From: Rhodoferax ferrireducens
GTDB taxonomy: Bacteria > Pseudomonadota > Gammaproteobacteria > Burkholderiales > Burkholderiaceae_C
Direction of reading: 5' to 3'
Length of the DNA stretch: 64,000 nucleotides
Assembly (NCBI GenBank): GCA_002083775.1
Contig: MTEI01000003.1
Location: forward strand, 310,001 to 374,000
Part shown: piece after piece, positions 53,534-55,684 of the stretch
Layout: every line of letters starts with the position of its first letter
Numbering within the stretch: position 1 is the stretch's first letter
Notes under the pieces: model-generated
Seen by the model: only the letters and a program-made list of their open reading frames with translations
Database searches by the model: none
What the model was told of the DNA's origin: nothing
Position numbers and translations under genes: made by a program

Positions 53534-54535
53534 TCAGGCAGACGGCTGGCCCATGGCGTGGCCGGCCTGCTGGTCCGCGTGGTAGCTGCTGCGCACCATC
53601 GCACCCACGGCGGCGTGGCTGAAACCCATCTCGTAGGCACGGGTTTCAAACATCTTGAACACGTCCGGGTGCACGTAGCGCTTGACCGTCAGGTGGCTGG
53701 TGGACGGGGCCAGATACTGGCCGATGGTCAGCATGTTGATGCCGTGGTCGCGCATGTCCTGCATGGTTTGCAAAATTTCGTCATCGGTTTCGCCCAGGCC
53801 GACCATGATGCCGCTTTTGGTGGGGATGTCGGGGAACTGCGCTTTGAACTTCTTCAGCAGGTTCAGGCTGAACTGGTAATCCGAGCCGGGGCGCGCTTCT
53901 TTGTACAGGCGCGGGATGGTTTCCAGGTTGTGGTTCATCACATCGGGCGGCGCGGCTTTCAAAATCTCCAGCGCCCGATCGTCGCGGCCCCGGAAGTCGG
54001 GCACCAGCACCTCGATCTGGGTGTGTGGGGATTTGGCGCGAATCTGCTCGATACACGCCACAAAATGCCCGGCGCCACCGTCGCGCAGGTCGTCGCGGTC
54101 CACGCTGGTGATCACCACGTATTTGAGTTTGAGCTGGGCGATGGTGTTGGCCAGATTGACCGGCTCGTTCACGTCCAGCGGGTCCGGGCGACCGTGACCC
54201 ACATCGCAAAACGGGCAGCGCCGCGTGCATTTGTCACCCATGATCATGAAGGTGGCCGTGCCTTTGCCAAAACATTCGCCAATGTTCGGGCAACTGGCTT
54301 CCTCACACACCGTCACCAGCTTGTTGGCGCGCAGCACATTCTTGATCTCGTAGAAACGCGTGGTCGGGCTGCCGGCCTTGACGCGAATCCACTCCGGTTT
54401 GCGCAAAATTTCGCCTTGCACCACCTTCACCGGGATGCGCGACAGCTTGGCCGCCGCCTTTTGTTTGGCGGTGGGGTCGTAGTTCTCGGCGGTTTGGGCC
54501 TCGCGCACAGTGGGAGAGTCGTTGGAGTTCGTCAT
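53534..54535 (-). CDS. lipA: Lipoyl synthase LipA
   Basis: 333 residues from ATG 54535 ([14 protein letters not shown]); the longer frame upstream is not conserved in style. Radical-SAM enzyme: auxiliary cluster cysteines [15 protein letters not shown] cluster CTRRCPFC, and the C-terminal Ser ligand region RSSYHAD. It inserts two sulfur atoms into protein-bound octanoate to make lipoyl groups for pyruvate and 2-oxoglutarate dehydrogenases and glycine cleavage. It follows lipB on the same strand, 70 bases away, in the classic DUF493-lipB-lipA order. Confidence 0.97.
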
Positions 54536-54605: not shown

Positions 54606-55385
54606 TTAATGGCCCAGGTAAATGACCAGCTTGCCAGCCAGCACTTCGGCCGCTTCTTGCCAGGAAACAGAAACGCCGATTGTAGAAAGATCAACGGTTT
54701 GCAGCGCCTGGTAGCCGCAAGGGTTGATACGCGAGTAGGGCTCCAGGTCCATGGCCACGTTCAGCGCCACACCGTGGTAAGTGCAGTTGCGGCTGACCTT
54801 GATGCCCAGCGCGGCGATTTTGCCCAGGCCGGTGAAGTTCGGGCTAGCCTTCTGCGGCCGAACTGACGGCGTATCGGCTGCAGAAATGGGGTCAGAGCCG
54901 GCCGCGTAGCGGAACGGCTCTGACCCCATTTCTGGAGCGTTAACAACCAGCTTCATCGGCCGCTGCGGCAGCAGCGCATGTGAGCGCGGATCGTCGAGGC
55001 GCACATAAATCCCCGGCGCACCCGCCACGCGGTGCCCGGTGATGTCAAAGTGCATCAGCGTGCGGATCACCGCTTCTTCAATGCGGTACACGTATTCCTT
55101 GACGAAATATCCAGCGCGTTTCAGGTCCAGCAGCGGGTAAGCCACCACCTGCCCCGGCCCGTGGTAAGTGACCTGCCCACCCCGGTTGGTCTGGATCACC
55201 GGAATGTTGCCAGGATTGAAAATATGCTCCTTTTTGCCCGCCAGCCCTTGTGTATAAACGGCTTCATGCTCACAAATCCACAGTTCATCGGGCGTGACTT
55301 CGGTGCGTGCGGCGGTGAAGGTCTGCATCGCTTCATAGGTGGGCAGGTAGGCCACCCGGCCTAAGAACTGGGGTTCCATCGCCAC
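54606..55385 (-). CDS. lipB: Octanoyltransferase LipB with an in-frame inverted-repeat insertion
   Basis: 259 residues; E. coli LipB is 213. It transfers octanoate from acyl-carrier protein to lipoyl domains. Signature [23 protein letters not shown] is intact, as are the catalytic Lys region [18 protein letters not shown] and the catalytic Cys in RINPCGY. Between KLVVNAPE and [14 protein letters not shown] lies a ~30-residue extra segment ([19 protein letters not shown]...). Its DNA contains a 20-bp perfect inverted repeat. The insertion sits just before the catalytic lysine in a surface loop, so activity is probably kept. It begins three bases after the DUF493 stop. Confidence 0.95.
54881..54934. 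repeat. 20-bp perfect inverted repeat inside lipB
   Basis: CAGAAATGGGGTCAGAGC... (54881-54900) and its exact complement (54915-54934) flank a 14-base loop. The unit is 54 bases, a multiple of three, and is read through by lipB. GGGGTCAGAG is a motif I associate with palindromes mobilised by REP-associated tyrosine transposases. No such transposase is in the window. Confidence 0.88.
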
Positions 55386-55387
55386 GC

Positions 55388-55684
55388 TTACAGCACCACC
55401 TTGACCATCGGGTGGGTGGAGAGCGTGCGGTACAGCTCGTCGAGCTGTTCGCGGCTGGTGGCGGTCACGGTGATGGTCACACCCAAATACTTGCCGCCTT
55501 TGCTGGGGCGCAGCTCGATGGTGCTGGCGTCAAAGGCTGGGTCAAACTGGTGGGCAATGTGGCTGATGGCGGCCACCAGGCTGTCGGTCTGCACACCCAT
55601 CACCTTGATGGGAAACTGGCATGGATAGGTGATCAGCGAGGCGCGCGGCGCCTCATCTGTCGGGAGGGTGGTCGGGTTGGTCAT
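55388..55684 (-). CDS. DUF493 (YbeD) family protein
   Basis: 98 residues: the ferredoxin-like DUF493 fold, with [28 protein letters not shown], then [42 protein letters not shown]. coli YbeD sits at the same place before lipB. It is first of the DUF493-lipB-lipA unit, separated from lipB by two bases. The biochemical role is unknown; a regulatory, ACT-like function is suggested by the fold. It diverges from the atp operon. Confidence 0.92.

Follow-up and report, generated by a model that had tools for sequence, protein, structure and literature searches.

Rickettsia palindromic elements (RPEs) are palindromes that lie inside reading frames and leave them intact, and orthologues are described with insertions at the same locus (excerpts of PMC3767692 and PMC10969869). 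The elements have a length of 100-150 bp (PMC3767692), and their hosts are Rickettsia and Wolbachia (PMC3767692, PMC10969869). One of the genes with a palindrome in Rickettsia encodes the tRNA ribosyltransferase-isomerase (PMC3767692). In-frame genic palindromes are thus already known, and the excerpt of PMC3767692 leaves open whether shared sites reflect a hotspot or a common origin by an old insertion. Intragenic REPs of the GTAG and CGTC super-families are also found in ORFs, many of them with a role in repair or replication, including those of DNA polymerase I and uvrA, and have a link to a tyrosine transposase (PMC3733652, in part). RAYT genes are flanked by two inverted REPs (PMC2817692, in part).

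Here we describe a 54-base palindrome in the lipB gene of a 64,000-nucleotide stretch of Rhodoferax ferrireducens DNA (hereafter the window), together with its relatives in other genes and genomes. Likened by description, lipB-type elements may work in the manner of RPEs. In-frame palindromes occur at the same site in orthologues (24 of 81 lipB genes, and polA), and the tRNA ribosyltransferase-isomerase gene (queA here) hosts a palindrome in both systems. Compared with the RPEs of these excerpts, the elements measure about 54 bases instead of 100-150 bp, belong to Comamonadaceae instead of Rickettsia and Wolbachia, and come with RAYT-type repeats. They further differ in having gene-specific interiors that are identical across genera whose host silent sites are nearly saturated, and in occurring in both orientations in one gene. 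The question of old insertion or hotspot now becomes testable in a free-living genus where alleles with and without the element coexist, where both orientations occur in several host genes, and where a transposase is at hand as a candidate.

With the GTAG/CGTC REPs, as far as the consulted part of PMC3733652 describes them, our elements share the short palindrome within ORFs, polA and uvrA (here uvrA-like) hosts and the tyrosine transposase link. Their foot, however, contains neither GTAG nor CGTC, and they are mostly intragenic where read, with 0-7 copies of the CC-type pattern (see below) per genome except for one genome with 17 (G050). The main text of PMC3733652 mentions neither Rhodoferax nor GGGGTC. 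RAYT/TnpA-REP units and REPINs (excerpts of PMC2817692, PMC8266576 and PMC3116915) resemble our system in their hairpins and in RAYT-like genes with adjoining inverted repeats; the flanking repeats here share AATTGGGGTCAGA with the lipB element. In contrast, the flanking unit here is a 21-base half and not the lipB palindrome, copies are few in the genome of the window, and gene loops are occupied rather than extragenic space. Because it has neither a GTAG/CGTC foot nor a high extragenic copy number, we do not file the lipB palindrome as a REP. The best matches in the open-licence literature include no palindromes of this kind from lipB or Rhodoferax, and the part of PMC2755013 (on Rhodoferax ferrireducens) that was consulted mentions only CRISPR.

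The Palindrome in lipB of the Window

The lipB gene (minus strand, 54606-55385) encodes a lipoyl(octanoyl) transferase of 259 aa, as identified from the ORF, family profiles and an alignment. The ORF starts with GTG, with an ATG two codons further on. LipB reaches 249.7 bits with PRK14342 (cut-off 235) and 175.1 bits with TIGR00214 (cut-off 83.55), whereas its 254.3 bits with PRK14343 stay below the cut-off of 298 for that profile. NCBIfam names the protein LipB and matches two stretches, one on each side of the insert. According to the ORF list, the minus-strand neighbors are an ORF 3' of lipB (53534-54535), which we take to be lipA-like (lipoyl synthase), and a 98-aa ORF 5' of it (55388-55684), presumably YbeD/DUF493-like. 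The genome of the window comprises 44 contigs and the nearest lipB records are from Rhodoferax.

The initial annotation had reported a perfect inverted repeat within lipB, which the sequence bears out. Each of two 20-base arms (54881-54900 and 54915-54934) is the exact reverse complement of the other; they enclose a 14-base interior (54901-54914) and together with it form an in-frame unit of 54 bases (54881-54934, minus strand, orientation A) that encodes approximately residues 151-169 of LipB. On the gene strand the interior reads TTCCGCTACGCGGC, a CCGC/GCGG stem with a triloop according to sequence and RNA fold. The foot of the palindrome is GGGGTC...GACCCC. An outer extension of the first arm (54877-54880) pairs with that of the second (54935-54938) with one mismatch; the repeat search accordingly returns arms of 24 nt (54877-54900 and 54915-54938, 96%). 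This inverted repeat is far above chance, since the best score in the loop region is 21 and never exceeds 9 when the codons are shuffled (40 shuffles), and the gene strand folded as RNA has a predicted energy of -50.7 kcal/mol (z -10.4). An Rfam search yielded three matches (E up to 1), each well short of its gathering score. The 20-bp arm also proved to recur in the genome, where TGGGGTCAGA is present 17 times compared with three for the reversed control.

The element is held by a variable loop (residues 129-187; 54825-55001, minus strand) between the parts that can be aligned with the solved LipB structure 1w66, which has five residues at the insert position. It ends about 20 residues ahead of K189, presumably the catalytic lysine, with which the alignment to 1w66 agrees. 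K189 and C223 are invariant in an alignment of 43 sequences. The AlphaFold model of this LipB is poor (mean pLDDT 62.6), with values below 50 for residues 142-178 and for parts of the core as well.

The lipB Loop in Related Bacteria

We compared 81 lipB genes, i.e., that of the window and the best 80 of 199 relatives. Empty and filled loops are both present among them, in keeping with the insertion that the initial annotation had proposed; the insertion is not unique to this strain, with 24 of the 81 genes carrying the element in one orientation or the other. Twenty-three carriers score 28-39 of 39 against the element consensus, versus 23 or less for the 57 genes without element, and the 24th (L039), missed by the loop pattern, was added by eye. 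Eleven copies are in orientation A (GSEPFRxAAGSDP and variants) and 13 in orientation B (GSDPAAQRNGSDP and decayed forms). All 24 share one codon phase (L039 by eye). On the left side, carriers of both orientations have flanks like K.V..APE in common. At the position where simply inverting the window's copy would create a TAG, copies in orientation B have CAG or a different sense codon.

In 25 of 28 distant LipB loci from other families, the corresponding stretch with its flanking motifs is 14-27 residues long (the other three have no motif match), and it spans 44 residues in another genus of the family. The 14-27 residues in other families and the five in 1w66 indicate that the insertion place is a naturally variable turn. 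The same loop contains other translated repeats, VIPGLTRDP (L058, L063, L067) and PFDRLRANG (L079), which we take to be common ones; the inverted repeat outscores every one of 40 shuffles in L058, L063 and L079, and does not in L067 and L077. The lipB genes of L069 and L071 carry near-copies, recognized by eye, of the RAYT-type repeat in the two other reading frames.

For a tree of the LipB core plus LipA, 15 rows that lack the element served as the root (L043, L050 and L069 are without lipA, L061 has a short lipA and L039 fills 37% of the tree columns). By the Fitch count, presence of the element requires 12 changes; if it was gained a single time, 21 losses over 53 rows are needed. When four short loops, which by eye look like remnants (L049, L053, L054, L062), are counted as such, these numbers become eight changes or 17 losses. 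The element is missing in 29 of the 53 rows under the common ancestor of the carriers (25 with the remnants counted), and the 24 carriers require seven or more switches of orientation. All change counts are rough, because support is weak for much of the inner tree, where 28 of 78 branches are open.

A Family of Hairpins With Preferred Host Genes

The lipB palindrome belongs to a family of approximately 38-44 bases running from GGGTC to GACCC, with the ends GGGGTCAGA...TCTGACCCC. A wide palindrome pattern is found in 62 of 89 genomes of the genus, with 0-77 copies (reversed control 0-2), and the CC-type pattern at 95 places in 36 of the 89 (reversed control 0 in all). The strict lipB-type pattern occurs in 19 of the 89 genomes and lies in the lipB loop of 18, the nineteenth being G050; a lipB match was obtained in 77 of the 89. 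Outside G050 it has 22 copies, of which 18 are in lipB. The genome of the window has five wide-type palindromes: polA, an MmeI-like gene, lipB and gspE each contain one in frame, and the fifth follows the EF-G gene.

We read 66 of the 78 CC-type places outside G050, which leaves 12 of the 95 unread. Fifty-one of the 66 are in frame in recognized genes, i.e., lipB (18), polA (16), MmeI-like (9), gspE and icmF (2 each), and amn, uvrA-like, queA and a hydrolase gene (1 each). The polA count excludes L178, where a 38-residue polA match lies in a 58-codon frame. Eleven places are in no recognized gene, one is in a broken MmeI-like ORF (L144), and three are close to where hsdS- or gcvP-like frames open at their 5' end and may precede the real start codons. 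An intragenic share of about three quarters does not exceed the fraction of a bacterial genome that is coding. The non-random part is the choice of genes, as lipB, polA and MmeI-like genes take 43 of the 66 places. No target sequence that explains this choice was found.

Each gene has its own interior version. The comparison took in 52 elements from six genes, with a single element for each locus, and excluded the 11-base ends; it omitted L186, the additional copy in each of L166 and L190, and the lone copies in the uvrA-like, queA and hydrolase genes. Elements that share the host gene but not the genome have an interior identity of 0.840 (363 pairs). Between elements of different host genes it is 0.580 within a genome (27 pairs) and 0.577 across genomes (936 pairs). 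The nearest interior comes from the same gene for 50 of the 52 elements (permutation mean 29, maximum 39, n = 1000), both exceptions being the icmF copies. Outside the genus, the CC-type is present at 11 places in 10 of 295 genomes. Two of these places are in polA and have the polA version, once exactly and once with one change; MmeI-like genes account for three, all with the MmeI-type interior, and six are unassigned.

Repeats Beside RAYT-Like Genes

A Y1_Tnp gene is present in 79 of the 89 genomes of the genus. Nine of 31 Y1_Tnp loci examined are open frames of about 235-290 codons that we call RAYT-like, a label that rests on length and flanks and not on a RAYT model. Eight of these nine have AATTGGGGTCAGATTCCAATT, or a sequence close to it, next to them (on both sides in five), as does one of the 22 other loci. 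The suspected tie to RAYT-type repeats finds support in the GGGGTCAGA repeats that these flanking sequences contain. The full lipB palindrome is beside none of the 31 loci; its GGGGTCAGA half alone flanks the RAYT-like genes. On account of this shared half, a RAYT transposase is the likely mover of the family.

Conservation of DNA and Not of Peptide

Within lipB, third-position identity of orientation A copies is 0.885 in the element versus 0.557 in the rest of the gene, and that of orientation B copies 0.784 versus 0.568. Six same-orientation pairs have no difference over the 39 element bases at a host third-position identity of 0.505-0.608, the lowest value belonging to L037 and L047. The 24 copies were chosen by similarity, which biases them toward conserved ones; the identical pairs are independent of this bias. 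Element distance has no clear tie to host distance (Mantel rho 0.10, p 0.22). It is the nucleic acid rather than the peptide that is kept, since both orientations occupy the same place and inversion alters the peptide fully. The sense codons of B copies where plain inversion would give TAG likewise indicate that the peptide is incidental.

In each species, the outer arms of the lipB element complement one another. Counted outward, positions 4-12 pair in 120 of 192 cases (permutation mean 81, maximum 106, n = 20000), mainly due to positions 4-8 (73 of 96); positions 8-12 alone give 47 of 96 (p 0.08). Complementary flanks of this kind would be expected after template switching or if an element had inserted into a hairpin.

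The polA Version

The polA element lies a little past YGFKGLARAL, with its own interior version and in both orientations. It is present in 17 genomes of the genus, G003 among them, and in two genomes from another genus, at loci L141 (G000:C1:145676-145715), L148, L156, L157, L159, L162, L164, L167-L170, L180-L182, L184, L188, L192, L222 and L223. All 17 copies of the genus were examined and have a single codon phase. Between different genera (G015 and G340), the element shows no difference over 40 bases at a third-position identity of 0.540, and the elements of G023 and G340 are identical once inverted (third-position identity 0.615). Element distance follows the host weakly (Mantel rho 0.29, p 0.04). 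Outer-arm complementarity in polA was not found beyond the shared ends (positions 4-8, p 0.045; positions 4-12, 60 of 144 versus 61.4 expected).

Origin of the Elements

The reading that we prefer, and to which we give an even chance, is that the lipB hairpin belongs to a RAYT-linked family of mobile palindromes that repeatedly enters a few tolerant gene loops. A mobile palindrome, as the initial annotation had suggested, is supported by the recurrence of the arm in the genome, by the empty and filled lipB loops and by the repeats beside RAYT-like genes. The RAYT transposase of these bacteria would move short hairpins, which may enter the few genes where an extra flexible loop is tolerated (polA, lipB, MmeI-like genes, gspE and icmF); in lipB the entry place would be ahead of the GKIAALG motif. 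The loop may be exposed, as its position at a place with five residues in 1w66 suggests, and the LipB is presumably working. Insertion or replacement would be repeated, recent and presumably targeted to genes, and the hairpin could allow inversion in place. Repeated recent insertion targeted to genes appears most likely because each gene has its own interior version. Recent re-insertion is also the best fit to elements that are dispensable, near-identical in distant hosts, gene-specific and mostly without a recombination tract.

More tentatively, and with the chances rather against it, each version could be a homing element of about 50 bases that re-enters one gene across species and genera, with single-strand or hairpin recognition supplied by RAYT. 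If each version does home to one gene, we know of no smaller gene-specific mobile element. It would also show selfish DNA writing new loops into core enzymes.

The strongest competitor, which we consider unlikely, is one old insertion per gene that was inherited vertically, with a DNA or mRNA hairpin under strong selection as a binding site or structure and flipping in place. It would account for the gene-specific interiors, for flanks common to carriers, for the apparent remnants in four lipB loops and for the complementary outer arms of lipB. Some vertical inheritance is in fact suggested by the lipB flanks common to both orientations and by the weak host signal in polA. The single codon phase within lipB and within polA, identical in both orientations, is likewise what one old insertion would give and speaks against re-insertion. 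However, the element is missing from 29 of 53 lipB rows (25 if remnants count) and hence dispensable, so that strong selection at each base is a bad fit. Several A copies have A-C mismatches in the sense-strand arms, and the outer-arm signal is mainly restricted to positions 4-8 in lipB and does not pass the shared ends in polA. Between old insertions kept by constraint on the nucleic acid and gene-targeted re-insertion, patchy presence combined with near-identity favors the latter.

Homologous recombination over short tracts, such as by transformation, could pass the element between the lipB or polA genes of different species, and would yield gene-specific, near-identical elements. In three polA pairs with G015, ungapped third-position identity is 0.60-0.65 in the 20 codons before the anchor versus 0.35-0.43 further up, which would be compatible with such a tract. 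Three polA pairs with G340, however, reach only 0.40-0.45 beside the anchor. For lipB, no tract around the element was found by comparing near and far third-position identity: carriers have 0.614 near and 0.561 far, and non-carriers are alike with 0.592 and 0.541. We regard recombination as improbable.

Domestication of the translated peptide, which the initial annotation had inferred, would imply selection of the insert within LipB. The insert is free of stops and in frame, and its peptide is polar and flexible. Third positions are nevertheless more alike in the element than in its host, and inversion replaces a peptide of the GSEPFRxAAGSDP type by a different one; on these two grounds we reject domestication, whose probability we consider very small. 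A local quasi-palindrome that arose in lipB by template switching and without any mobile element would explain the complementary outer flanks, but is refuted as a full account by the same sequence in other genes and genomes and retains a negligible chance.

Further Palindromes of the Family

Genome G050 contains 17 scattered lipB-type copies on many contigs (L112, L125-L139), an apparent burst. Five are without a stop-to-stop frame of 80 codons across them and 12 are in unassigned frames of 84-370 codons; the lipB gene of G050 also has a copy, which falls outside the strict pattern. The MmeI-like methyltransferase genes of L166 and L190 each contain two in-frame palindromes that are 216 bases apart from start to start, and the MmeI-like gene with a palindrome at L144 looks frame-broken in G001. 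The queA palindrome is found at L189. Sister palindromes with interiors such as GAGCAC...GTGGTC lie near the ends of long frames (L143, L145, L147, L149, L151) and are possibly terminator-like.
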